Source of the DNA: Desulfarculus sp.
GTDB lineage: Bacteria > Desulfobacterota > Desulfarculia > Desulfarculales > Desulfarculaceae
Length of the DNA stretch: 11,277 nucleotides
Assembly (NCBI GenBank): GCA_020216625.1
Contig: JAIUYB010000034.1
Span: forward strand, 1-11,277
Direction of reading: 5' to 3'
The position numbers were made by a program, and so were the translations under genes. The notes under the pieces are model-generated. The model ran no database searches, was not told where the DNA came from, and worked only from the letters and a program-made list of their open reading frames with translations. How positions within the stretch are numbered: the first letter of the stretch is position 1; the number at the start of each line of letters is the position of its first letter. Of this stretch, positions 1 to 11,277 are shown one piece after another.

Positions 1-1434
1 GACAACCCGGCGGTGATCGTGGACAGCCAGGGCGGCAGCGGGCGGATCTACGGCGCTGGTCAATACACCGGCAAGTACAGTCGCGACCTGCAATTGAGCG
101 TGGACGCGGCCTACGCCGGCGGCGTCCCCAGCGCCCTGAACCCCATGCGGATCAATTACTCCTACGTGGATGACTATGGCCGCACCGTCACCGGCAGCGT
201 GACCTTGACCGGCACCGGCAGCGGCAACGGGGTTGAGGTGGGCGACGGACTGCGCATCTACACCGACGAAGGGACCTTTGCGGCCAATGGCTCCTACACC
301 CTGGAGGTTCACCGCCAGCAAGGCAACAACCAAAGCGTCTACGCCAATCTGGCCAGCAATAGCCGCATGGCCTACAACTACACCCTGGACACGCTCTGGT
401 CGGGGGAGGGCAATTCCGGCGTCGGCTGGGGCAACCTGCTGGACCAGTTGCGACACTGGCAGGACACGCTGGCCAAGGACTACGAGGTGCAGAAGTACTT
501 CGAGGCGGTGCCGGCGGTCGGCAACGACCGCGCCAGCACCGCGCAGTTGCGGGTTGACGGAAATTGGGCCGAATTGGGCTCGCGCGACTACGAGTTCTAC
601 ACCGGCGGGCCCATCCAAAGCAGCGACGCCGACGAGACCGCCCTGCGCAACTACCGCAACTTCACGGTGGACGCGGCCTACGCCGGGGGGACCCCGGAGG
701 CCGGCAACCCCATGACCCTAAACTACGAGTATTGGGACGGCGCGGCCTGGCAGACGGATTCCGTGGTCGTCTCCGGCACCGGCAGCGGCAACCCGGTGAG
801 CCTGGCCGGCGGCTATGGCGCCACCATCTATCTCGTGGAGTCGAGCTACACCGCCGGCGAGTCCCTGCCTCTGGAGACATATCCCTCCCTGCCCGCGCCG
901 CCGGCCGCCTTGCCATCGCCTCTGCCCAAGGACACCGCGGTGGAGCCCTCGGCCAGCCAGCCGGTGCGGGTCACCTACACCTATGTGGAAAACAACCAGC
1001 GGCGCTGGGGCAGCGTGGTCTTCACCGGCACCGGCGACGACCCGGCCAACGTCCTCTCCTTGAACCCCCCGGGCGAGGCCACCCTAAGCCTGAACCAGGG
1101 TGGCACCCTCAACGACGGCGACACCTGGTCCCTGACCCTGGAGCAATACCACCAGGGGCAGTCCACCAGCCAGGCCATGGTGGCAACGCTTGAAAGTGTC
1201 CAGTCCAAACTGCTAAAGTACATCGGCGACGCTGGCGGAAAGCTCAACCGCCTGGAGACCCGCACCGGCTTCCTGGAAAACGACGTGCTGCGGCTCAACG
1301 ACCGCCTGGAGCAGGTCGAGGATGCGGACGTGACCAAGGTGGCAACTCAGCTGGCGAGCTTCCAGACCATGTACCAGGCCACCCTGAAGGCCACGGCCAT
1401 GGTATCGGGTAAATCCCTGGCCGATTATCTGTGA
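1..1434 (+). CDS. flgL: FlgL, flagellar hook-filament junction protein (HAP3), 5' end missing
   Basis: The reading frame is open from base 1, so the N-terminal part lies outside the window; 477 residues are visible before the TGA. The C-terminal ~75 residues look like the flagellin/FlgL D0-D1 return helix: a helix with LNRLETR (residues ~415-421), then an EDADV motif (440-444), TQL, and the ending SLADYL, which fits FlgL (SLLDFL-type ends) better than flagellin. The position directly before csrA and fliW also matches flgL. FlgL joins the hook to the filament outside the cell after export by the flagellar type III system. The central part is unusual: it contains two or three related beta-rich modules (VDAAYAGG at 34-41 and 223-230; TGTGSGN or similar at 70-76, 258-264, 342-348), so the whole protein is much larger than the ~300-residue enterobacterial FlgL. 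A large flagellin-like protein is the alternative, less likely because of the C-terminus and context. Confidence 0.85.
   Translation, partial: DNPAVIVDSQGGSGRIYGAGQYTGKYSRDLQLSVDAAYAGGVPSALNPMRINYSYVDDYGRTVTGSVTLTGTGSGNGVEVGDGLRIYTDEGTFAANGSYTLEVHRQQGNNQSVYANLASNSRMAYNYTLDTLWSGEGNSGVGWGNLLDQLRHWQDTLAKDYEVQKYFEAVPAVGNDRASTAQLRVDGNWAELGSRDYEFYTGGPIQSSDADETALRNYRNFTVDAAYAGGTPEAGNPMTLNYEYWDGAAWQTDSVVVSGTGSGNPVSLAGGYGATIYLVESSYTAGESLPLETYPSLPAPPAALPSPLPKDTAVEPSASQPVRVTYTYVENNQRRWGSVVFTGTGDDPANVLSLNPPGEATLSLNQGGTLNDGDTWSLTLEQYHQGQSTSQAMVATLESVQSKLLKYIGDAGGKLNRLETRTGFLENDVLRLNDRLEQVEDADVTKVATQLASFQTMYQATLKATAMVSGKSLADYL
76..315 (+). repeat. FlgL internal module, copy 1
   Basis: This codes for a beta-rich stretch containing VDAAYAGG, then a Y-rich strand pair, TGTGSGN and a closing LRIYTDEG / YTLEVHR segment. 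A 20-base DNA block (100-119) is identical to one in copy 2 (667-686), and an 18-base block (211-228) is identical to 775-792. The conserved order and spacing of these blocks indicate duplication within the gene. Confidence 0.75.
652..882 (+). repeat. FlgL internal module, copy 2
   Basis: This is a second copy of the module, with VDAAYAGG, NPMTLNYEY, SGTGSGN and TIYLVESSYTAG in the same order as copy 1. It is separated from copy 1 by about 110 residues of unrelated sequence that carries a DLL/LRHW-type helix-like segment. A proline-rich linker (PSLPAPPAALPSPLP, about nt 883-927) follows it. Confidence 0.75.
955..1155 (+). repeat. FlgL internal module, copy 3 (divergent)
   Basis: This is a more divergent, shorter copy with VRVTYTYVENNQ, GSVVFTGTG, LSLNQGGTLNDGDTWSLTLEQ. 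It lacks the VDAAYAGG start but keeps the strand pattern Y-x-Y, GSV-x-TGTG and a terminal T-x-x-L-x-x-E strand. It is recognised by amino-acid pattern only; no long DNA identity to the other copies was seen. Confidence 0.55.
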
Positions 1435-1488: not shown

Positions 1489-1734
1489 GTGCTGATACTC
1501 ACCCGCAAGGTGGGGGAAAGCATCACCATCGGAGACGGCTCCATCACCGTGAGCGTGATGGAGGTCAAGGGCCGGCAGGTGCGCCTGGGGATCAACGCCC
1601 CGCCGGACACTCCCATCCACCGCCAGGAAATTTTCGACAAGATCAAGGAAGTGAATCAACAAGCCGTGGCGTGCCAGGCCGGGGACCTGGACTTGATCAG
1701 CGGCCTGCTGGATGACGGGGGGCGGGATGACTGA
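1489..1734 (+). CDS. csrA: CsrA/RsmA carbon storage regulator, RNA-binding translational repressor
   Basis: CsrA is a small dimeric RNA-binding protein that binds GGA motifs in mRNA leaders; in flagellar clusters its main target is the flagellin transcript. The 81-residue product starts [11 protein letters not shown] and shows the family core: L4, R6, the GD turn near 15-16, the VRLGI strand (31-35) and the AP-x-D-x-x-x-HR-x-EI segment. R45 corresponds to the RNA-contacting arginine R44 of E. coli CsrA. The GTG start is set by GGAGGT at 1478-1483, 5 bases upstream. At 81 residues it is longer than the 61-residue E. coli protein, with an acidic C-terminal tail ([16 protein letters not shown]). 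Extended C-termini are known in CsrA proteins that FliW binds. It lies 54 bases after flgL and overlaps fliW, so it is probably in the same transcript. Confidence 0.97.
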
Positions 1735-2182
1735 GGCCATGACCCAAGATGTGCTGAAAGTCGCCACCACCCGCTTCGGCATGGTGGAAGTGCCCGCCGA
1801 GCGCATGCTGACCTTTCCGCACGGCATGGTTGGTTTTCCGGAATTGCACCGCTATGTGATGTTGCGCCATCGCGAGGGATCGCCTTTCCACTGGCTACAA
1901 AGCGTGGACCACCCCGACCTGGCCTTTGTCCTGGCCAACCCCCTGGTCTTCGACCCTGGCTACCAGGTGGTGCTGGGCAACACCGAGAGCCAACTACTGC
2001 AAAGCAGCGACGTGCAAAACCTCCAGGTCTGGGTGGTGGTGACCATTCCCCAGGGAGAGCCGGAAAAGCTGACCGCCAACCTCAAGGCCCCGGTGGTCAT
2101 CAACCTGGAAAACCGCCTGGCGGCCCAGGTGATCATGGACGATCCCCGCTTCCCCCTGCGTCAGCCCCTGCGCAAACAGTAA
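1727..2182 (+). CDS. fliW: FliW, flagellar assembly factor and CsrA antagonist
   Basis: FliW binds either flagellin or CsrA. When flagellin has been secreted, free FliW sequesters CsrA and flagellin translation resumes. The sequence fits the family: an early TTRFG-x-x-EV strand, ITFP-like [13 protein letters not shown], the F-x-WLQS-x-DxP-x-LAFVL block, a VVVTIP strand, [12 protein letters not shown] and the end QVI-x-x-x-x-FPLRQPL. The ATG at 1727 was chosen, which overlaps the csrA stop region by 8 bases; ATGs at 1712 and 1739 are in frame and also possible, because no start has a clean Shine-Dalgarno sequence (only a G-rich run before 1727). The length of 151 residues is normal. The overlap suggests translational coupling with csrA, which would keep the two antagonists in proportion. 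Confidence 0.95.
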
Positions 2183-2273: not shown

Positions 2274-2591
2274 CTAGACCAGTTCGCGCAGGAAATCCAC
2301 GATCATTCGCTGGGCCACCTTTTCGGCGTCGACCGTGTATTCCTGGTTGGCGATGCGCTGCTTGATCTCGGCCACCCGCTGCTCGCGCACATCGGTGGTG
2401 TTGGCCAGGGCCTCGGCCGCCTTGGCCATCTCCCGGCTGCGGCCGGACAGCTCCACCCGGTCGGAAGACGCGGCCTGAGCCATTTCGCCGGAGCGGGTGG
2501 CCGCCTTGTCCTCGACCCGCGGGCTGGAGGAGGCGCGGTCGCGGTTTTCCACCGCCTTGTTGGTCAGGCCCAGGGTTTCCTTGATTTGCAT
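2274..2591 (-). CDS. flgM: FlgM, anti-sigma-28 factor
   Basis: FlgM binds the flagellar sigma factor FliA (sigma-28) and holds late flagellar genes off until the hook is complete, after which it is exported. The 105-residue product has the typical disordered, polar N-terminal half and the conserved C-terminal sigma-binding region: DRVELSG-x-S (44-52), then RVAEIKQRIANQEYTVDAE (72-90) and a final amphipathic helix with V-A-x-R-M-I. A strong Shine-Dalgarno AAAGGAGG (2606-2599 on the minus strand) sits 7 bases before the ATG. It is the second gene of a minus-strand operon, 72 bases after the DVU0524-like gene, and ends before an intrinsic terminator. Length and motifs are normal. Confidence 0.94.
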   Translation of the reverse strand: MQIKETLGLTNKAVENRDRASSSPRVEDKAATRSGEMAQAASSDRVELSGRSREMAKAAEALANTTDVREQRVAEIKQRIANQEYTVDAEKVAQRMIVDFLRELV

Positions 2592-2663: not shown

Positions 2664-3101
2664 TTACACCATGTTCTCGTCCACGATCTGTTGCGTGATG
2701 GCGAACAGGCGCTCCTGCAGGCTGGCCGATTCCTCGGAACCCAGGGTTTCCACCACCTCGCCGGTGGTCTGGTCCCGCACCAGGAAGCGCAATTGCCCGG
2801 TGCTTTCGTCCTGGCTCAGATCCAATTCGCGGCCATACTCCTGGCTCAATTGCTTGAGCGCCATATCCTCCACCCCGCCGGGACCCATGCCCAGACCAGG
2901 GACACGATAGCCGATATTTGATACGATTTCAGCGGTTATCTTCTCGATGACCTGCTTGCGCCGGGCCTCTATGCTGATATTGACCTGATCGGAAGGGAGG
3001 CTTTCGCTGGCCATGCGCCGCCGCGCCAAGCGCTGCCCACGGCTGAGCTGCTTGGCGTAAGTTCGCAGAATATTCTGCACTTGAAAAGAGGTGATCGTCA
3101 T
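2664..3101 (-). CDS. DVU0524-like, FlgM-associated protein of unknown function
   Basis: The 145-residue product has no signal peptide or membrane segment. It resembles the small protein encoded next to flgM in Desulfovibrio (DVU0524 family), recalled from the conserved start TITSFQVQNILRTYAKQL, the DQVNISIEARR stretch (38-48) and the conserved gene pair; its biochemical role is not established. Visible parts are a basic helical N-terminus (RGQRLARRRM, 21-30), a glycine-rich hinge (GLGMGPGG, 69-76) and a C-terminal strand pair LRFLVRDQTTGEVVETL (104-120) that recalls the D-x-x-TGEV motif of FlaG. A final helix ends in QIVDENMV. It is the first gene of the operon with flgM, directly after a sigma-28 promoter, so it is expected to be a late flagellar gene. 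The start at 3101 is supported by the conserved N-terminus; the ribosome binding site is weak (TTAGGT close to the ATG). Confidence 0.8.
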   Translation of the reverse strand: MTITSFQVQNILRTYAKQLSRGQRLARRRMASESLPSDQVNISIEARRKQVIEKITAEIVSNIGYRVPGLGMGPGGVEDMALKQLSQEYGRELDLSQDESTGQLRFLVRDQTTGEVVETLGSEESASLQERLFAITQQIVDENMV

Positions 3102-3126: not shown

Positions 3127-3154
3127 TTATCGACCACTCCGAGCAGAAACTTTA
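3127..3154 (-). promoter_or_regulatory. Sigma-28 (FliA) promoter of the DVU0524-like/flgM operon
   Basis: On the minus strand the -35 element TAAAGTTT (3154-3147) matches the FliA consensus at all eight bases, and the -10 element GTCGATAA (3134-3127) matches GCCGATAA at seven of eight. The spacer is 12 bases, against 11 in the consensus. The expected start is near 3119, about 18 bases before the ATG of the first gene. This would put FlgM under the sigma factor it inhibits, a known feedback arrangement. Confidence 0.82.
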
Positions 3155-3272: not shown

Positions 3273-3734
3273 ATGCCGGCTTCTATCCACAGCCTGGCGA
3301 CCCCTGGCGCGACCGCGTACACTAACGCTGGCGGTCGTGAGGCCCTGGACTGCGCCGCGCAGCCAGGGCAGGCGGTGACCAGTCATAGTTGGAGCCTGAG
3401 CACCGGCGGGTTCAACCTGGACTTCACCTGGCGGAGGGTGGAAAGCCTGGCCACCGGGGGGGCGGGTTCTTCCCCAAAGAGCCAAGCCGCCACCCCCGCC
3501 CCGGCCCAGACCGCCAACGCCACCGCTCCCGCCAAACCCCGGCAGAGTTTCCAGGAAATCCTTCGCCGTCAACAGCTTAGCCAACTGCTACTAGCATCGG
3601 ATCGACCGCCCCAGGATCGCCAATCCCTGCTGACGGCCAGCCCGCCATCCCCGCCCCAGGCCGGACCGGTCTGCCGGGCCTATGCCCAGGCCATGGGCCC
3701 ACTGGGTGGGTCCGGGCGCAATTTCAGCGCATAA
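3273..3734 (+). CDS. Hypothetical protein, alanine/proline-rich, flagellar cluster
   Basis: This is a 153-residue protein that I do not recognise. It has no signal peptide and no membrane segment. The N-terminal third has a SLSTGGFNLDFTWRRVESL stretch that could form strands; the middle (about residues 67-92) is a low-complexity Ala/Pro/Thr/Lys linker; then a short helix QSFQEILRRQQLSQLLLA (94-111), and a Pro/Ser-rich tail. The ATG at 3273 is preferred over an upstream in-frame TTG at 3204 because AGGGA at 3262-3266 is well placed, 6 bases before it. It is transcribed divergently from the flgM operon and lies between it and the glycosyltransferase operon, so a flagellar role is a guess from location. 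Codon use (G/C third positions) is consistent with a real gene; the low-complexity composition leaves some doubt. Confidence 0.6.
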   Translation: MPASIHSLATPGATAYTNAGGREALDCAAQPGQAVTSHSWSLSTGGFNLDFTWRRVESLATGGAGSSPKSQAATPAPAQTANATAPAKPRQSFQEILRRQQLSQLLLASDRPPQDRQSLLTASPPSPPQAGPVCRAYAQAMGPLGGSGRNFSA

Positions 3735-3747
3735 CCCATCTCGCCAA

Positions 3748-3802
3748 CGCAAATGGGCGCAGGTGGCGCGTCAAATAATTTGCGCGCTGGGCACGATTTG
3801 CC
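3748..3802. promoter_or_regulatory. Cluster of CGCAAAT/ATTTGC inverted repeats, possible activator-binding region
   Basis: The gap between 3734 and 3967 holds an AT-rich core inside GC-rich DNA. An imperfect palindrome spans 3766-3787: GCGCG-t-CAAAT-a-ATTTG-CGCGC. A further CGCAAAT lies at 3748-3754, inverted relative to ATTTGCG at 3778-3784, and ATTTGCC follows at 3796-3802. The cluster is 80-130 bases upstream of the sigma-54 promoter, the usual distance for an enhancer-binding activator. The half site GTCAAA...TTTG loosely recalls FleQ/FlrC-type sites. No T run follows, so it is not an intrinsic terminator. Confidence 0.4.
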
Positions 3803-3879: not shown

Positions 3880-3895
3880 TGGCACGAGGGTTGCA
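3880..3895 (+). promoter_or_regulatory. Sigma-54 (RpoN) promoter of the glycosyltransferase operon
   Basis: The sequence TGGCACG (3880-3886), four bases, then TTGCA (3891-3895) is a full match to the -24/-12 consensus, with the exact GG-to-GC spacing. The predicted start is near 3906, giving a leader of about 60 bases before the ATG at 3967. Sigma-54 needs an AAA+ activator, which in flagellar systems is of the FlrC/FleQ/FlgR type; that gene is not in the window. Confidence 0.9.
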
Positions 3896-3966
3896 CGGAA
3901 CCGGGTAATGGTTTCCGGATCGCTCCCCCATGGGCAACACCAAGCCCTGGAATGAGGAAAAGCCCC

Positions 3967-5514
3967 ATGCGGATGCTGCTGCTGGGCAGTGACAACTTCG
4001 CCTCCGCCCTGCGCCGGTTGGGATGCCAGGTGGTCACGGCTATGGCCGGAGATGGGGCCGACTTGCGCCTGGGCCCAGGGGACCCGGATTGGCGCGAGCT
4101 GAGGCAGGCGGTGGGGGAGGATTTCGATGCCATCTTGGTCACCGATAACATCGGTCGCCGGGTCCTGCCCACCGGCTTGTGGGCCGCCAGGGCGGTGACG
4201 GTCTTCTATGGCGTCGATGCTCCGCTGAACGGATTTTGGCAGCAGCATTTCGCCCGTTTGTTCGACCTGGCGGTTTTTGACCAGCCCCAGGCGGCCCTGG
4301 ATCTGGCGCCGGTGCATCCGGCGGCCCATTGGCTGCCACTGGCGGTGGAGACGGAGCGGTATGGTAACGACGCCAAACCGCAGGACACCCCGGGAGCCTG
4401 TTTTGTGGGGGTGGTGGACGAGGCTCTGCGCCCCAAGCGTTCGGCGGTCCTGGCCAGGTTGCGTCGGAAAACCAGCCTGGCGGTCCACGGCGGGCGGGGG
4501 CAGGGTTGGTTCGCGACCGAGGACGCCGCCCGGCTCTACCGCCGTTATCAGCTTGTAGTCAATGAGAATCTTTTTCCGGGAATGACCACCAGGCCCCTGG
4601 AGGTGATGGCCTCGGGCGGCTGTCTGTTCAGCGAGGCCGCGCCAGGGGTGATGGATAGGCACTTCGCTGACTTCGAGCATTTGGTCTATTTCACCCCGGA
4701 TGATTTCGACCAGCGACTGGAGCGATTGCTGGGCGACGACGGCTTGCGAATGAGTCTGGCCGAGGCGGGGCGGGAGGAGGTTTGCCAGCGCCATTCTTTC
4801 CTGGTTCGGGCCGGGCAGCTCCTGGGGTTGATCGAGCAATTGCGCGGGATGCCGCCGGAGGAGCGTGGCCGGGCGCGCGGAGGGGAGGCCCTGCGCCTGG
4901 AGGGTGAAAGCCTTTTTCTGGCCGGCCTGCGTTGGCCGCGTGAAGGCGGGAGTACAAGGGCCGCCAGAGGGTTGGGAAGGCTCAATGCCGCGGCCAACGA
5001 TGGCGCGGACCCTCTGCCCGCCAGCCGGGCCCATGGCCGGGCCGCCTTGCTGGCAGGTCAGATTGAGGCCGGAATGTCCCAGCTGGGTCGGGCGGCCCGG
5101 TTGGGCGGACCGGTAGATGGTCTGGTCTGGGCCCTGGCGGCCTGGTTGGTGGGCCGGGCCGATTTGGCCAGGGAGCGTTGGCGGGCCCTGTTGGGTAAGG
5201 CCGGTGAGCCAGGCCAGGCCCGTTTCCACATGGCGGTTGGTCGCCGGTTGGCCCAAGAGGGCGATGATCTGTGGCCGGGGTTCAATCGCCAGGCTTTGCC
5301 GATGATCCTTTGGGGAGCATTCGAGCATTTACTGGAGGCAACCCGAATTGCGCCCGAGCAACCCTCGGCTTGGGAGGCCCTGGGAGATCTTCTCTTGAAG
5401 CGGGGAGCCCCCAATCAGGCGCACACCTGTTACCAGAGGGCCTTGGAGCATTCCTCCGGCGTGGTTTTGGCGGAAAAGGTCCACCAAGCCGCCAGGCGCG
5501 GCTACTTGGAGTAG
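3967..5514 (+). CDS. CgeB-like glycosyltransferase with C-terminal TPR region
   Basis: This predicted cytoplasmic 515-residue protein begins with a beta-strand (MRMLLLGSDNF) of a GT-B type fold. The C-terminal half of the fold is clear: residues 199-218 read NENLFPGMTTRPLEVMASGG, the pattern of the Glyco_trans_1_2/CgeB group, followed by LVYFTPDDFDQRLERLL and a typical closing helix with RHSFLVRA. Residues ~310-500 are Ala/Leu-rich helical repeats, with one good TPR unit near 468-497 (AWEALGDLLLKRGAPNQAH and following). The TPR part may hold the acceptor protein. The ATG at 3967 was chosen over 3952 because GAGGAAAA (3954-3961) forms a good ribosome binding site for it. It is the first gene after the sigma-54 promoter, 2 bases before the Maf-like gene. 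Donor sugar and acceptor cannot be read from the sequence; modification of flagellin is inferred from context. Confidence 0.82.
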   Translation: MRMLLLGSDNFASALRRLGCQVVTAMAGDGADLRLGPGDPDWRELRQAVGEDFDAILVTDNIGRRVLPTGLWAARAVTVFYGVDAPLNGFWQQHFARLFDLAVFDQPQAALDLAPVHPAAHWLPLAVETERYGNDAKPQDTPGACFVGVVDEALRPKRSAVLARLRRKTSLAVHGGRGQGWFATEDAARLYRRYQLVVNENLFPGMTTRPLEVMASGGCLFSEAAPGVMDRHFADFEHLVYFTPDDFDQRLERLLGDDGLRMSLAEAGREEVCQRHSFLVRAGQLLGLIEQLRGMPPEERGRARGGEALRLEGESLFLAGLRWPREGGSTRAARGLGRLNAAANDGADPLPASRAHGRAALLAGQIEAGMSQLGRAARLGGPVDGLVWALAAWLVGRADLARERWRALLGKAGEPGQARFHMAVGRRLAQEGDDLWPGFNRQALPMILWGAFEHLLEATRIAPEQPSAWEALGDLLLKRGAPNQAHTCYQRALEHSSGVVLAEKVHQAARRGYLE

Positions 5515-5516
5515 GC

Positions 5517-7052
5517 ATGGATCTGAGCCAGACCAGCGATGGGGCCTGGTTCTTGGCCGGACGGCCCTTGCACCCGGCCCGGGGAGCCCTGGCGGCCGCC
5601 AGGGCCGAGTTAGCGGATCAGGGGCTGGATTTGTTGGGGCCCGACGACTTGGTCCTGCTGGTGGGACTGGGTCTGGGCTGGCACGCCCGGGCGTTGCTGG
5701 ATCGCGCCCCCGATGTCAACTTGCTGGTATTCGAGCCTGATCAAAACACCAGGGCCCTGGCTTCGGCCTTGGGCCCCAACCTGGACGGGGTGGAGGTGTT
5801 TGGGGCCGAGAACGATCTTCTGGCCCACCTGGCCCAGGTTTTGGTCTATGAAACCGGCCGGCAGGTCAAGGTGGTGAGTGTCCCGGCCTACCGCGAGGGG
5901 CAACCGGAATTATGCAACCAAGTAGAAACCCTGGTTGATAGGCAGACCCAACGGGGGAGGGTGGACCGGCTTAATCGGGCCGCCAAGCGCGCGCAGTGGC
6001 TGGGCCACCTGGAACAAAACATCAAGTATATACTCGAACTGCCGGACCTGACGCGACTGTACGGCCGGTACCGCGGGGCTCCGGCCTTGGTGATCGGGGC
6101 CGGACCTTCCCTGGATCAATCCCTGCCACTGCTGGCCCGACAGGACCGCGGGTCGCTGCTGACCATCGCCGCCGCCTCGGCCCTGACACCCTTGGCAAGG
6201 GTTGGGATCCATCCCGATGTGGTCCTGGCCCTGGAGGCCAAGGACGAGTCCCGGCAATTGATGATGGCCGATCCCGATCGGACCTTGGTGGCCGCAGCCA
6301 GCGGCGCGCACCCGAACCATTTCCGCAACCATCCGGGATGCAAAGCGCTTTTCCATTTGTTCCCCTGGTTGCCCAAGGTTTTGGGCCAGGGGCTGGCTGT
6401 GGCCAATGGCGGACATGTCACCAGCGCCGCCTTCACCTTGGCCTTGATCTGGGGGTGCGATCCAATTGTTCTGGTGGGGCAGGACTTGGCCTTCAGCCAG
6501 GGGCGGACCTACGTCCAAGGGCGTCCAGGAGCCGACGATCAACCGGTGTTCCAGACCATGACCGTCCCGGCTATCGGAGGTGGAACGGTAGAAACCTCCT
6601 TAGTCATGGCTGGTTACATAGATTGGTATCGTGAAGCGGCGGCGTATCTTGACCAAGGCGGGCAGGGCCCTCGGTTGGTCAACGCCAGCGCCCAGGGAGC
6701 CTGGCTGCCCGGCTTTGAGCACCAGGACTTGAGGTCGGTTTTGGAGGGGCTTGCGTCCCGCCAGCGATTGTTAGAGCGACCGCTGGAAGCGGCTCGCAAG
6801 CTGGCGGCTCCCCCAGCCTGGCAGGTTGGGCAGGCCCTCAGCCAAGCCCGAACCGATTTGCGGCAGGGCTTGAATTTGTTGACGCGGCAGGGTATCGCGG
6901 CATTGCGACAATCCACGGCACATGATTCGGTGGTGGCAGAACTCTGGGATTTGATTGGTAAAGAGGATCAAGCGGAGAGGGCGCGAGCGGTCCTGGAGGA
7001 GCTTAGCCAGGCCATGACCAGGATGGCGGAGGTGGTGCATGCCCACGCCTAG
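5517..7052 (+). CDS. Maf/MptE-like (DUF115) flagellin glycosyltransferase
   Basis: The 511-residue product belongs to the motility accessory factor group, whose studied members in Campylobacter, Helicobacter and Aeromonas are needed to attach nonulosonic acids (pseudaminic or legionaminic type) to flagellin in the cytoplasm. An N-terminal Rossmann-like part (LVLLVGLGLGWHARAL, 45-60; VFEPD 71-75) resembles the Maf N-domain. The DUF115 core carries GAGPSLD (194-200), HPDVVLALE (232-240), GGHVTSAAF (298-306), GQDLAFSQGRTY (321-332) and NASAQGAWLPGF (389-400). The tail (about 405-511) is helical. The ATG at 5517 follows GGAG at a 6-base spacing; the longer frame upstream overlaps the previous gene and is not used. 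It overlaps the next gene by 14 bases. The sugar is not determinable here, and no sugar biosynthesis gene is present in the window. Confidence 0.9.
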   Translation: MDLSQTSDGAWFLAGRPLHPARGALAAARAELADQGLDLLGPDDLVLLVGLGLGWHARALLDRAPDVNLLVFEPDQNTRALASALGPNLDGVEVFGAENDLLAHLAQVLVYETGRQVKVVSVPAYREGQPELCNQVETLVDRQTQRGRVDRLNRAAKRAQWLGHLEQNIKYILELPDLTRLYGRYRGAPALVIGAGPSLDQSLPLLARQDRGSLLTIAAASALTPLARVGIHPDVVLALEAKDESRQLMMADPDRTLVAAASGAHPNHFRNHPGCKALFHLFPWLPKVLGQGLAVANGGHVTSAAFTLALIWGCDPIVLVGQDLAFSQGRTYVQGRPGADDQPVFQTMTVPAIGGGTVETSLVMAGYIDWYREAAAYLDQGGQGPRLVNASAQGAWLPGFEHQDLRSVLEGLASRQRLLERPLEAARKLAAPPAWQVGQALSQARTDLRQGLNLLTRQGIAALRQSTAHDSVVAELWDLIGKEDQAERARAVLEELSQAMTRMAEVVHAHA

Positions 7053-8220
7053 TCTGGGCCTGGTGATGATCCTGAAAAACGAGGCGGCCAATCTGCCTCG
7101 CTCCCTGGCCCCCATTGCCCATTGCTTCGACGAGATCGTGGTGGCCGATACGGGTTCGCAAGACGATACGGTGCGTATTTGCAGGCAGTTAGGCGCCAAG
7201 GTCTATAGCATACCGTGGCAGGATGATTTCGGGGCGGCGCGCAACCAATCCATTACCCTGGCCAGCGCGGACTGGTTGCTCTGGCTTGATGGGGATAACA
7301 CAACAACGCCTAATGAAATCGAGGCATTACGCGCTGCGATACCTGTCTCCGGACCGGGGGTGATCTGGGCCCAGGAAAAGGTGGTGCCCAGCGGTGAGCG
7401 GCTCTGGCAAAAGCGTTGTTTTCCGCACCGACCGGAGGTCGGCTTCGCCGGCAGGGTGCATGAGCAACTGGTCCATCCGCCGGATTGGCCCAACCTGGTG
7501 GCGCCCATGGTGATCGAGCACTGGGGGTACGCCGATCCCCGGCGATCGCGGGAAAAGGGCGTTTATTATCTTAGGCTATTGCAGCAAACACTCGAAGAAA
7601 CCCCCGGCGATTTTTACGCCCGTTTCCAAGCCGGTCGTTGCTTGGTCAACCAAGGCGACTTGCCTGGGGCCGTCGCTGAATTATCCCTGGTGACGGCTGA
7701 CGCCGAGGCGCGCCGAAGCAACCCCGAACTCTGGGCCGCCGCCCACCACCTCCTGTCCCAGACCTGGCAGCGACTGGGCCACGAGGATCTCGCCCGCCAG
7801 GTCCTGGACCAGTTGCTGCACCAGATGCCAGGGCACGGGCTGAGCCACTATCATCGCGGACGCTTGGCCTATGCATCCGGAAAATGGGAGGAAGCGGTGG
7901 AGCACCTCTCCCTGGGACTGTCTCTGGGTTGGGGCGCGCCAGTGATGGACCTGGACCCGGAGCAAACCACCTTTCGCGCCCATTATTTCCTGGCCCGCGC
8001 TTGCGAGGAGTTGGGACGACCCCACGAGGCCTTGGAGCAACTCGCGGCCGCGCGAAAATTGGACCCCCTTCGAACCAGCTTGGCCACCGACCACGCGCGG
8101 TTGCTGTTGGCGATTGGAAAACCTCAGGCCGCCCGAAAAGAGTTAGAGCAAATACTTCAAAAGATGCCAGGGGACCGGCGCGCCCGCGCCCTATGGCAAC
8201 AGATCGAGGCCTCGGCATGA
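7039..8220 (+). CDS. GT2 family glycosyltransferase with TPR tail
   Basis: The 393-residue product is a GT-A fold family 2 transferase. Motifs in order: MILKNEAANLPRSL (10-23), the nucleotide-binding ADTGSQDDT (36-44), DFGAARNQSI (63-72) and the metal-binding DxD-type motif in WLDGDN (82-87), then GFAGRVHEQL (135-144), which fits the acceptor-side histidine region of this SunS-like/TPR-GT2 subgroup. Residues ~185-390 form TPR-like helices (for example YHRGRLAYASGKWEEAVEHL, 271-290, and HYFLARACEELGRPHEAL, 315-332). The ATG has a strong GGAGGT ribosome site 5 bases upstream and overlaps the end of the Maf-like gene by 14 bases, so translation is probably coupled. A TPR next to a GT2 catalytic domain suggests a protein acceptor. 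Flagellin is the likely acceptor by context only. Confidence 0.88.
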   Translation: MPTPSLGLVMILKNEAANLPRSLAPIAHCFDEIVVADTGSQDDTVRICRQLGAKVYSIPWQDDFGAARNQSITLASADWLLWLDGDNTTTPNEIEALRAAIPVSGPGVIWAQEKVVPSGERLWQKRCFPHRPEVGFAGRVHEQLVHPPDWPNLVAPMVIEHWGYADPRRSREKGVYYLRLLQQTLEETPGDFYARFQAGRCLVNQGDLPGAVAELSLVTADAEARRSNPELWAAAHHLLSQTWQRLGHEDLARQVLDQLLHQMPGHGLSHYHRGRLAYASGKWEEAVEHLSLGLSLGWGAPVMDLDPEQTTFRAHYFLARACEELGRPHEALEQLAAARKLDPLRTSLATDHARLLLAIGKPQAARKELEQILQKMPGDRRARALWQQIEASA

Positions 8221-9995
8221 AGAAGCAGAGCCTGCACATCGCATTCATCACCGATGGTCAGCCATTCCACGGCGCATCGCCCGAGGAGCACGCCTTGGGC
8301 GGTTCCGAAACCGCCTGCGTCCAAATGGCTCGGGCCCTGGCCCAGCGTGGCCACCGGGTCCAAGTCTTCTGCCGTTGTCCCCGTCCGGGGTTTCATCAAG
8401 GCGTGGTCTTCCGCGACCGCTGCGACCTGGTGGACGCCTCCCAGGAGGAACGGTTCGCGGTGGTGGTGGTCAGCCGGTTTTTCACCGCGCTGGATTTGCC
8501 ACTGCAAGCCGGACTTAAGGTGCTGTGGAACCATGACATTCTGGACGTACCGCGCCTCCTGGAAAAGAGACTGGACGATTTGGATCTTTGCCTGGTCCTG
8601 AGCCGGTTCCACGCCGAGGATTTCCTGGCCAAGCTCCCGGCCATCGCCCCCAAGCTGGCTCTGACCCGCAACGGGCTCGACCTGGACTTGATCGATCGTT
8701 CGGTGATCGGAATCCAGCGCGACCCCTGGTTGATGGGTTATGTCTCGCGGCCCGAGAGGGGCTTAAAGCTATTGCTCGAAAAGGTGTGGCCAGTCCTGCG
8801 GGAGAAGAAGCCGAGTCTGCGCCTGGCGGTTTGCGGATACGAGGTTGATGCCAGCGAGCTGCCCGAGGCCGTGGTCAGGGAGCACGCCCAGATCCAAGAC
8901 CTGATCGCCAACAGCCCGGGGGTGGTGCGCCTGGGGGCCCTGGCCAAGGCCGACTACTACCGGTTCCTCGCCACTTGCGGGCTGTTGCTATATCCTTGTG
9001 AATTTCCAGAGATATCCTGCATAGCCGCCCTGGAGGCACAGGCCCTGGGCACCCCCCTGTTGACCAGCGACGCCTTCGCCCTGCGAGAGACGGTCGCAGA
9101 ATCGAGTTTCCGGGTGTCTGGCGAACCCGGTTCCCCAGAGTACCTGGATCGCTACATCCAGCGCGCGCTCGAAATGATTCAAGAGCCACATGAGGCCCAA
9201 ACCCTGGCCGAGGCGGCCCGGGTTCGCGTCCGCGCCCGCCACGACTGGAGCCGCATCGCCGCTGAGTGGGAAGATTTGTTCCAAGACCAGCTATCGCGGC
9301 GCGTTCTGCGCCAGGCCTCGGCCATGGCGACCAGTCTGGTCCTGAAAGGGGATCGAGCAGCGGCCGAGGAATTGTTGCAGCGCGGCCTGCCAGTTCCAGA
9401 CGAGGGACCAGCGCCCCGCGATCCCGACGAGGAAGGGCTGCTGGACGCCATGGCCCAGGCCCTGGCCGGGGTGTTGCCCGAAAACGGTGTGGTCGGGGTG
9501 GTTTCGCGCGACCAGGGCCGCACCGCCCAGGGATTGGCTCAACGGCTGGGACGGGAGACCCGCGAGATCGATCCGGCCGGCGTCGGCCAGGGGAGGGTGG
9601 ACGCCCTGGTGGTCCGTGACTCCCTGGAACGGGCCGAAGAACCGGCCGATTTCCTGCGTCGGGCCCTGGCCTGGTGCCACCCTCATGGGCAGGTTCTGCT
9701 CTGCGTGGCCGCCGGAGCCTGGCCCCTCTTGATGGCCGGCCACCTGGCCCGACGCCACGATCTTGGCCGCGAGGAACTCCTGGCTCTGCTGCCGGGGCGG
9801 TCGGTCTCACTGCGCTATCTGGCCCGGGGGCTCATTGGTCAAGGGGCCGACCGCTACTTCGCCGGTCGCTGGCTGGCCCTGGCCCCGGCCGCCGGTCCGG
9901 AGCCAGGCTTGCTGGACCCCGGAGCCGGCCTGCGCCGCACCCGGCCAGCGCCCCAAAAACTGGTGGACGAGGTGAAGCGTGCCGGCCTGGTCTGA
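8217..9995 (+). CDS. GT4 glycosyltransferase fused to a degenerate methyltransferase-like domain
   Basis: The 592-residue product starts at an ATGA overlap with the previous stop codon, with GAGG 8 bases upstream. Residues 1-365 are a GT-B fold family 4 transferase: HIAFITDGQPFHG, GGSET (28-32), RNGLD (151-155), YVSRPERGLK (175-184) and the EX7E motif, E265 and E273, inside PEISCIAALEAQALGTP. A helical linker (360-395) follows. Residues ~420-500 resemble a class I methyltransferase in its later part (VDALVVRDSLERAEEPADFL, then WCHPHGQVLLCV), but the SAM-binding glycine-rich loop is not visible (VVGVVSRDQGR takes its place). This half may be inactive or may serve another purpose. The GT4 call is firm; the methyltransferase relation is tentative. 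The last 17 bases overlap the next gene. Confidence 0.85.
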   Translation: MKKQSLHIAFITDGQPFHGASPEEHALGGSETACVQMARALAQRGHRVQVFCRCPRPGFHQGVVFRDRCDLVDASQEERFAVVVVSRFFTALDLPLQAGLKVLWNHDILDVPRLLEKRLDDLDLCLVLSRFHAEDFLAKLPAIAPKLALTRNGLDLDLIDRSVIGIQRDPWLMGYVSRPERGLKLLLEKVWPVLREKKPSLRLAVCGYEVDASELPEAVVREHAQIQDLIANSPGVVRLGALAKADYYRFLATCGLLLYPCEFPEISCIAALEAQALGTPLLTSDAFALRETVAESSFRVSGEPGSPEYLDRYIQRALEMIQEPHEAQTLAEAARVRVRARHDWSRIAAEWEDLFQDQLSRRVLRQASAMATSLVLKGDRAAAEELLQRGLPVPDEGPAPRDPDEEGLLDAMAQALAGVLPENGVVGVVSRDQGRTAQGLAQRLGRETREIDPAGVGQGRVDALVVRDSLERAEEPADFLRRALAWCHPHGQVLLCVAAGAWPLLMAGHLARRHDLGREELLALLPGRSVSLRYLARGLIGQGADRYFAGRWLALAPAAGPEPGLLDPGAGLRRTRPAPQKLVDEVKRAGLV

Positions 9996-11277
9996 GACCA
10001 AGCCGCGTCTGCGGTTGGTGACGTCACCAAGCCATGGCCTGGTGGTGATCCAGCTGGCGCGCCTGGGCGACTTCCTGCAGACCACCCCGCTTCTGGCCGC
10101 CCTGCGCGCGCGTCACCCGGGCGCGCGAATCATGGCCGTGGTGAACCCGACCCAGGCAGCCCTGGCCCATGGCTGTGGTTTGGTGGACGAGGTCTTGACC
10201 CTGGACCCGGCGGTTTTGCGGGACGCGGCCGCCGACCACCACGCCCGCCGGGCCCTGGCCCGGCTGCGGGCGCTTTGCCAGCCGCTCTGGAGCCGACCCG
10301 CCCAGGCGGTCTACAACCTCAACTTCTCCCCTTTGGCCGCCGGGGTGGCGGCGGGCTGGGACCAGGCGGACCAGCGCGGCTGGCGGATTGACCGGGCCAA
10401 GCGCCGTCTGGTGGGCGCGGGCTGGTCCGGCTTCGTGATGCAAAACGTCTCCGACCGCCGCCTGACCCGGCTGCACCTTTGCGACATCCTGGCCTCCTAC
10501 GCCGAGGTGGAGACCCCGCCTTTGGCTCGTCTGGCTCAACGGGTGGACGCGAGCGCGGCGGCTCGAGTCCAGGACCTGTTGGGCCCACGCCGCCCCCGGG
10601 TGGCCCTGCAGCTGGGAGCCAACAACGATCTGCGTCGTTGGCCGGTGGCCAGTTTCGCCGCCTTGGCCAAGGCGCTGCTGGAGCGGGGCCTGGAGGTTTT
10701 TCTGGTGGGCAGCCACGCCGAGCGGCCGCTGGGCCGGCGCTTTCGGGATGCCCTGGGGCCGGCCGGGGAAAAGATCCACGATCTGATGGGGCGCACCGAC
10801 TTGGCTGGGCTGGCCGCCGTTCTGGCCGCCATGGACCTGGTGGTCTCCGGCGACACTGGCAGCCTGCATCTGGCCACCGCGGTGGGCGCGCCAACGCTGG
10901 CCCTGTTCATGGGCCCGGCCCAGGTTCACGAGACCGGGCCCTACGGCGCGGGTCACTTGGTGCTCCAAGCCCGGGACGCCTGCGGACCCTGCCAAGAGGA
11001 CGCGCCGGCCTGCGGCGGGACGGCCCCCTGCCGGCGGCTTTTGGATCCGGTTGCGGTGATTGGCGCGGCGACGGATTTGCTGGATGGCCGCCCGGCGGCG
11101 GAGGTGGGCGCGGGGCTGGAACTGCCCGAGGGCGTGGAGCCGCTGCTGGGTGAGATGGATGGTTTTGGCCAGCGCTACCGCCCTCTGCGGCCCCGACCCC
11201 TGGAGCCCTTGACCGCCCTGGCCCTGGCCCTGCGCCAGGCCGGACGCCTCCTGCTGCGTCCGGGCCCCGTGGCGGGC
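9979..11277 (+). CDS. GT9 heptosyltransferase-like glycosyltransferase, 3' end missing
   Basis: This frame is open from a GTG at 9979 to the right edge (433 codons visible). The start is supported by GAGGTG at 9969-9974 and overlaps the GT4 gene by 17 bases. The product begins its fold at VVIQLARLGDFLQTTPLL (22-39), the typical GT9 N-terminal motif, and carries LQLGANNDLRRWP in the second half and the diagnostic SGDTGSLHLA (290-299) with GAPTLALFMGP. A cysteine cluster follows (C335, C338, C345, C351), as in many GT9 members. Studied GT9 enzymes transfer heptose from ADP-heptose, mainly to LPS core; here the position in a flagellar operon suggests a protein or glycan-chain acceptor, but LPS is an alternative. 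The visible chain extends about 70 residues beyond the normal GT9 end, so an extra C-terminal domain is likely. Confidence 0.85.
   Translation, partial: MPAWSETKPRLRLVTSPSHGLVVIQLARLGDFLQTTPLLAALRARHPGARIMAVVNPTQAALAHGCGLVDEVLTLDPAVLRDAAADHHARRALARLRALCQPLWSRPAQAVYNLNFSPLAAGVAAGWDQADQRGWRIDRAKRRLVGAGWSGFVMQNVSDRRLTRLHLCDILASYAEVETPPLARLAQRVDASAAARVQDLLGPRRPRVALQLGANNDLRRWPVASFAALAKALLERGLEVFLVGSHAERPLGRRFRDALGPAGEKIHDLMGRTDLAGLAAVLAAMDLVVSGDTGSLHLATAVGAPTLALFMGPAQVHETGPYGAGHLVLQARDACGPCQEDAPACGGTAPCRRLLDPVAVIGAATDLLDGRPAAEVGAGLELPEGVEPLLGEMDGFGQRYRPLRPRPLEPLTALALALRQAGRLLLRPGPVAG

Follow-up and report, generated by a model that had tools for sequence, protein, structure and literature searches.

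Sigma-54-dependent expression of flagellin glycosylation enzymes has been described in other bacteria. According to the accessible text of a review, such enzymes are among the genes that depend on RpoN in H. pylori and C. jejuni (PMC3930126), and the available part of a study of H. pylori jhp0106, a Maf relative located behind flaB, reports this gene to be down 92% in an rpoN mutant (PMC5368276). In the text available from a further source the C. jejuni regulon consists almost exclusively of flagellar structural genes (PMC7677240), hence the C. jejuni part of the glycosylation claim may be narrower. As far as these sources extend, CsrA acts on the control of jhp0106 too, the gene is proposed to share the RpoN promoter of flaB, and H. 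pylori FlgR works without binding DNA. In C. crescentus and D. vulgaris, FlbD and DVU1063 are associated with sigma-54 hook and rod genes and with the palindrome GGCA-N4/5-TGCC (PMC3096577, PMC7064773, PMC3333781, PMC4641369; excerpts), and the receivers of FlbD (PMC3096577) and DVU1063 (PMC3333781) lack the phosphorylation residues. No operon of flagellar glycosyltransferases figures among the targets in the accessible parts of this literature. Binding sites 40-70 bp downstream of promoters are, in the D. vulgaris text at hand, mostly those of DVU1063. The D. vulgaris sigma-54 study lists 19 flagellar operons and no word beginning with “glycosyl” occurs in its main text (PMC4641369), nor does one in the main text of an RpoN study in G. 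sulfurreducens (PMC2725144), both as available in part. In Caulobacter, the excerpted source describes flmG, flmA and neuB as CtrA-controlled and expressed before the FlaF chaperone (PMC7591256); related literature, again available in part, is PMC12316311.

In this study we describe a five-gene operon of glycosyltransferases and a Maf-type protein in Desulfarculus sp. (GCA_020216625.1) that is preceded by a sigma-54 promoter and by a predicted enhancer of FlbD type. Like the enzymes of H. pylori and C. jejuni, to the extent of the sources above, its genes appear to be under sigma-54 (middle-class) control and include a Maf relative. However, the operon has its own promoter and palindrome where jhp0106 is thought to share that of flaB, a predicted upstream palindrome is present where FlgR does without DNA binding, and flagellin looks sigma-28-dependent here. 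With the excerpted FlbD and DVU1063 systems it has in common the sigma-54 hook and rod genes, the palindrome and a candidate activator with a degenerate receiver, although the palindrome lies about 90 bp upstream of the promoter and not downstream. From the text available on Caulobacter we note as shared features that glycosylation genes precede a late part of flagellin export and that proteins combine TPR repeats with a glycosyltransferase (PMC7591256); the differences are CtrA control and the lack of a Maf there, as opposed to FlbD/sigma-54-type control and a Maf gene within the operon here. The regulatory logic, glycosylation timed before flagellin, is known elsewhere with different wiring; what varies here is the FlbD-type palindrome on a dedicated Maf/glycosyltransferase operon. 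An earlier note on this DNA had called direct sigma-54 control of a whole Maf/glycosyltransferase operon less often described. This stands for a dedicated operon under FlbD/sigma-54 control, of which we found none in the open-licence literature in the portions available, supplements aside. It does not stand for RpoN-dependent glycosylation enzymes as such, which the accessible texts already report (PMC3930126, PMC5368276).

The window, i.e. the whole stretch of DNA analysed, is one contig of 11,277 nt (C409; JAIUYB010000034.1) from a genome (G000) of 2.98 Mb that is 70% complete. Its features are as follows:

1..1434, + strand: flgL-like gene, C-terminal part, open at the contig start (Flagellin_C 22 bits, cut-off 23; flgL model TIGR02550 61 bits, cut-off 127)
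1489..1734, + strand: csrA (profile match)
1712..2182, + strand: fliW (profile match)
2274..2591, - strand: flgM, anti-sigma-28 factor (profile match)
2664..3101, - strand: FlgM-associated protein of the DVU0524 family (NF041863, 80.2 bits, cut-off 40)
3127..3154, - strand: sigma-28-like promoter TAAAGTTT-N12-GTCGATAA, serving the DVU0524-like gene and flgM
3273..3734, + strand: small conserved ORF between the sigma-28-like and the sigma-54 promoter (tblastn matches in syntenic relatives)
3790..3802, + strand: predicted enhancer GGCACGATTTGCC, FlbD-type palindrome GGCA-N5-TGCC
3880..3895, + strand: sigma-54 promoter TGGCACGAGGGTTGCA (-24/-12), predicted +1 at about 3906
3967..5514, + strand: gene 1, glycosyltransferase (PF13524) with a weak C-terminal TPR match
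5517..7052, + strand: gene 2, Maf-type protein (PF01973, MptE-like; 111.7 bits, cut-off 34.6)
7039..8220, + strand: gene 3, GT2 glycosyltransferase with TPR repeats (profile match)
8217..9995, + strand: gene 4, group 1 type glycosyltransferase (PF00534, profile match)
9979..11277, + strand: gene 5, GT9 (heptosyltransferase-like), cut by the contig end

The five genes of the operon overlap or almost abut (5514/5517, 7052/7039, 8220/8217 and 9995/9979). The preceding sequence and the relatives make ATG 3967, preceded by TGAGGAAAAG, the likely start of gene 1, with the in-frame ATG 3952 as the alternative; 71 bases separate the sigma-54 motif from ATG 3967. Gene 2 matches the NCBIfam PseD model weakly and under the cut-off; its family PF01973 was formerly called MAF_flag10. 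A search of solved structures gave no match for the Maf gene and TPR proteins as the only matches for gene 1. Neither NCBIfam nor Pfam matched the small ORF, and an Rfam search of the window returned nothing at the gathering score. In the family, where contigs reach, the order is DVU0524/flgM, small ORF, gene 1, Maf, GT2, GT4 and GT9; loci L050 (G013) and L055 (G011) have neither flgM nor the small ORF ahead of gene 1.

Our analysis confirms the sigma-54 promoter motif. The full RpoN consensus with correct spacing that the earlier note had seen, TGGCACG-N4-TTGCA, is present at 3880-3895 on the + strand, with the GG of the -24 and the GC of the -12 element at exact spacing in TGGCAC-N5-TTGCW, and the start it had placed near 3906 agrees with the predicted +1 (C of the -12 GC at 3894). 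The pattern TGGCACN5TTGCW has one exact match in the window. At up to two mismatches the window holds five matches and no excess over shuffled sequences (mean 6.6), hence the window alone proves little. A count across the own genome gives 10 exact matches compared with two for the pattern reversed, for the shorter form TGGCACN5TTGC 15 compared with three, and summed over 20 family genomes TGGCAYRN4TTGCW reaches 236 against 15. Because of this genome-wide excess most exact matches in the family are probably real sigma-54 sites. The 14 other shorter-form sites of the own genome include one ahead of motA (Pfam) and one ahead of a flgB-like gene (L002), named by eye (Flg_bb_rod 18.8 bits, cut-off 20.7). 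The genomes compared are fragmentary. Those of the family are divided here by their Flagellin_N matches into flagellin-bearing (12/12) and flagellin-less (0/8) ones; the latter form one genus, and every contrast of 12 with 8 counts as one loss of flagella. RpoN is encoded in the own genome (PF04552, E 1.9e-62) and was found in 11 of the 12 flagellin-bearing and in all eight flagellin-less genomes; the flagellin-bearing G010 (86% complete) gave no RpoN match.

We searched for gene 1 in 98 genomes, the own included, and found it in 48. The promoter scan covered 30 of these 48 loci, namely all 12 of the family and 18 at class level. Within the family the promoter (TGGCAYN5TTGCW, 0-1 mismatch) is present at 11 of the 12 loci keeping gene 1, ten times exactly and in G009 with one mismatch, and it begins 56-106 nt ahead of the aligned gene 1 start; in the shuffle control 1-8 of 300 per sequence matched at up to one mismatch anywhere in 250 nt. 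G011 keeps gene 1 and has no sigma-54 site. In an alignment of the 11 promoters the core columns average 10.9/11 identical and the flanks 5.5/11. At class level none of the 18 loci with a similar gene 1 has the promoter at the same place, and displaced matches are one with one mismatch at -225 and three with two mismatches at -112, -131 and -232. Conservation of the motif in relatives that keep the operon, to which the earlier note had tied its reading, is therefore found within the family and fails outside it.

Beyond the promoter the gap before gene 1 contains a second element, a palindrome 90 bp ahead of the -24 box, counted to the first base of that box. It was found by aligning this gap together with the motifs published for DVU1063 and FlbD (PMC3333781, text available in part). 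Counting the window, 8 of the 11 family promoters have an exact copy of the palindrome at -90 to -96; it is degenerate in L054 (one mismatch) and in L049 and L052 (two each), with exact matches in 0-4 of 1000 shuffles per sequence. Ahead of fliD it recurs, exact or with one mismatch, at -86 to -110 of all six sigma-54-like sites. Hence GGCA-N4/5-TGCC palindromes accompany sigma-54 flagellar promoters in the family, as in an FlbD-type regulon. Three of the 15 own-genome sites have an exact copy: the window site, the site ahead of the flgB-like gene (copy at -154) and that ahead of a gene for a small protein (L005; copy at -86). No palindrome accompanies the motA site, and copies with one mismatch are scattered among the other sites. 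The gene after GT9 (L085:1599-3272, L079:1207-2916, L080:1689-3344) carries a TGGTA-type sigma-54-like site with one mismatch within about 60 nt upstream, and an exact palindrome at none of these three loci. By eye this gene had been taken for a second Maf, an assignment we rejected on Pfam Glyco_trans_1_2 (PF13524) matches in 4/4; a partial Maf N-terminal domain exceeds the cut-off in two of the four (L085 and L079).

In order to follow palindrome and promoter as one signature we used the composite GGCAN5TKCC-N72..102-BGGCAYN5TTGCW. Its form, K and B letters included, was shaped after seeing the gene 1 and fliD sites, so that independent evidence from the test comes from the remaining target genes, from the genomes without flagellin and from the reversed pattern. 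The composite has 46 matches distributed over 12/12 flagellin-bearing family genomes, with none in the eight flagellin-less genomes of one genus and none for the reversed pattern. Eight matches precede gene 1; in G006, G007 and G009 gene 1 is missed by the exact composite, as the palindrome deviates and in G009 the -24 box too. The 38 others divide into 21 ahead of flagellar genes, for the most part fliD and flgE, and 17 ahead of a gene without known flagellar role:

fliD: 7, all with FliD domains
flgE: 7 (4 with FlgE_D2, 1 by NCBIfam, 2 cut-off genes with an FlgE/F/G domain only)
FlgE/F/G-type rod gene: 1
fliS: 1
flagellin/FlgL-type: 2
FliK-like: 3 (L102 and L119 below the Pfam cut-off, at 26.5 and 23.2 bits to Flg_hook, cut-off 29.8; L127 by likeness to L119 alone)
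TPR-glycosyltransferase: 1 (own genome, L197)
58-59 aa four-cysteine protein: 7
roughly 94-aa protein: 4
DEAD-box helicase: 1
other uncharacterised genes: 4

The signature, present in all 12 flagellin-bearing and absent from the eight flagellin-less family genomes searched, lists candidate new flagellar genes. The 58-59 aa protein (FEPELYCLRCQ...MEWD...C.NF...CPL) has conserved cysteines and stands behind the composite in seven genomes (L118:190-363 on C174 of the own genome, L101, L108, L116, L117, L121 and L196), with no Pfam match for the two members tested, L118 and L108. The family of about 94 aa follows it in four genomes (L120, L123, L191 and L195), again with no Pfam match in the three tested (L123, L191 and L195). 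A long protein with TPR repeats and a glycosyltransferase, in an FlmG-like layout, is encoded at L197:357-3485 (C80 of the own genome, start codon uncertain) behind a composite of its own, and may represent a second glycosyltransferase of the regulon of the gene 1 operon. A DEAD-box-type helicase gene lies behind a sigma-54 site and palindrome in two genera (L115 in G006 at -98, by Pfam; L098 in G007 at -143, by eye). The search was widened to another 36 genomes, 30 from the order or class and 6 from the phylum; six of the class-level genomes had one composite each, and the control gave 0. Two of these six composites precede flgH (L201 and L203, Pfam); by eye a third gene is flgH-like and one is GT2-like. 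The GT2-like gene (L200, by eye) belongs to the class-level genome G023, whose gene 1 has no such promoter, which hints at a separate recruitment.

A protein that could bind the palindrome was sought among the PF00158 matches, of which there are 33 in the own genome and 29-43 in each of four genomes checked. All 29 places were examined in G007, where an FlbD-like gene lies directly before flgB; the stretches around the operon in G007 and G009 contain no PF00158 match. The FlbD-like protein of G007 shares 69-77% identity with its counterparts in the other flagellin-bearing genomes, 11 in number, of which that of the own genome is truncated and that of G013 has one in-frame stop, while the best matches in the eight flagellin-less genomes are 46-50% identical. 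The best of 103 NCBIfam models is that of Caulobacter FlbD, at 461.2 bits and below its cut-off of 750, hence we call the protein FlbD-like and not FlbD. The phospho-acceptor aspartate of its receiver is Ala or Gly in 12/12 orthologues, compared with Asp in the one canonical receiver aligned (L134), a degenerate receiver as in an FlbD-type flagellar regulon. Activators are thus encoded in the genome and an enhancer-like element, with predicted binding, lies near the promoter; the FlbD-like protein is the candidate that we infer to bind it.

By its promoter sites gene 1 is assigned to the sigma-54 tier, flagellin to that of sigma-28. Sigma-28-like sites with up to two mismatches are located at -51 to -53 ahead of the DVU0524-flgM genes at all ten syntenic loci and ahead of 15 of the 16 flagellin genes scanned in nine genomes, the sixteenth, in L087, having four mismatches. 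The late-class pattern TAAA-N14..16-GCCGATAA shows at least four mismatches in all ten gene 1 upstream regions. A FliA match above the cut-off is present in 11 of the 12 flagellin-bearing genomes, the exception being G001 (71% complete), and in none of the eight flagellin-less ones. As judged from these sites, the glycosyltransferase/Maf operon is most likely part of the middle tier of flagellar genes (FlbD/sigma-54) and would be ready before flagellin; from the order of the flagellar cascade, its enzymes should be present before flagellin appears. Both parts of the timing proposed by the earlier note gain from this: switching together with sigma-54 flagellar genes has cis support from the shared palindrome, and expression of the glycosylation enzymes ahead of flagellin is supported by sigma-28 sites at flagellin and flgM and none at the operon. 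As the operon shares the promoter and enhancer type of the hook-gene switch, the sugar machinery is probably made just ahead of the filament protein. This gives a rule for when, in this family, flagellin-modifying enzymes are made relative to flagellin.

Taken together, we consider it very probable that the operon has a sigma-54 promoter with an upstream enhancer, activated by an FlbD-like protein, and that its five genes are made with the hook and before flagellin. An FlbD-like enhancer-binding protein, its receiver devoid of the phospho-acceptor aspartate, would bind GGCA-N5-TGCC about 90 bp upstream and open the sigma-54 promoter. A single transcript would then provide the PF13524 glycosyltransferase, the Maf-type protein, the GT2-TPR protein, the group 1 glycosyltransferase and the heptosyltransferase-like enzyme. 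With the enhancer-promoter pair shared by flgE, fliD and other flagellar genes, the glycosylation machinery would be made alongside the hook, and flagellin, being sigma-28-dependent like flgM, would be made after it. Firing of the promoter in the cell and flagellin as the target of the glycan are both predictions from sequence. A role of the operon in flagellin glycosylation is likely on the distribution and neighbourhood of its genes. Among the relatives, 48 of the 75 with flagellin have gene 1 and none of the 23 without flagellin does, although kinship among the genomes means that these counts are not independent. In G007, G009 and G006 the contig with gene 1 also bears flagellin genes, about 16-21 kb further downstream, and at L078, L083 and L084, the last from the own genome, flagellin has a GT2-TPR protein as its neighbour.

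Several other explanations have to be weighed against this mechanism. It seems hardly credible that the motif is a chance match to the consensus without promoter activity: the window, no richer than shuffles at up to two mismatches, would agree with it, but the position is kept in 11 of 12 family loci whose flanks have drifted, and both the genome-wide excess over the reversed pattern and the linked palindrome contradict it. A real but minor sigma-54 promoter, with the operon depending mainly on transcripts that start at a sigma-70-type promoter ahead of the small ORF and run on into gene 1, and without flagellar timing, is improbable as well. Such transcripts could begin at TTGNNN-N17/18-TATNAT, which by eye precedes this ORF at 7 of 10 loci (an eighth has TATACT), and our scan shows no + strand terminator between 3735 and 3880. 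However, a sigma-70-like site in the window was not listed by the consensus scan, and from the end of the small ORF to gene 1 no block is better kept than the sigma-54 core.

Two further alternatives accept the promoter. The palindrome might be used by a different sigma-54 activator, for example a protein of the type of L130, encoded about 5 kb from the FlbD-like one in G007. The abundance of activator domains in each genome checked, the FlbD model cut-off that was not reached and the purely predicted assignment of the palindrome to the FlbD-like protein leave room for this, yet we think it unlikely: the palindrome agrees with the DVU1063 and FlbD motifs in the available text of PMC3333781, and L130 was set aside as flagellar activator since it has close relatives (59-63%) in 7 of 8 flagellin-less genomes, unlike the FlbD-like protein. 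Alternatively promoter and enhancer are flagellar and the enzymes decorate another target, such as hook, FliD, LPS or sheath. Gene 5 does resemble LPS heptosyltransferases, and 27 of the 75 flagellin-positive relatives manage without gene 1. Against this, Maf proteins are required for flagellin glycosylation in other bacteria, as stated in the accessible part of PMC7591256, gene 1 is missing from every one of the flagellin-negative relatives, and flagellin genes are found near it, so that we doubt this alternative.

Extending the preferred mechanism of an FlbD-like activator at a sigma-54 promoter, we tentatively suggest that assembly of the basal body licenses flagellin glycosylation, a proposal whose parts taken jointly might hold but could well fail. 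A phosphorylation-blind FlbD-like activator, gated by completion of MS-ring and export gate, would use one shared composite to switch on both the hook and the glycosyltransferase operon, and this composite would also drive the second TPR-glycosyltransferase and the two small-protein families. If this were true, the 58-59 aa and roughly 94-aa proteins would be new flagellar parts or regulators. As the operon occurs outside the family without such a promoter, it would have been recruited into the sigma-54 tier, or released from it, during evolution.

A minor observation concerns the opposite strand of the small ORF. At five of the ten syntenic loci, not including the window, this strand bears a sigma-28-like site that coincides with the stop codon of the ORF or adjoins it (L020:1174, L047:6119, L048:1659, L051:7824 and L052:7738); the site could give rise to an antisense RNA or serve as an additional promoter on the flgM side.
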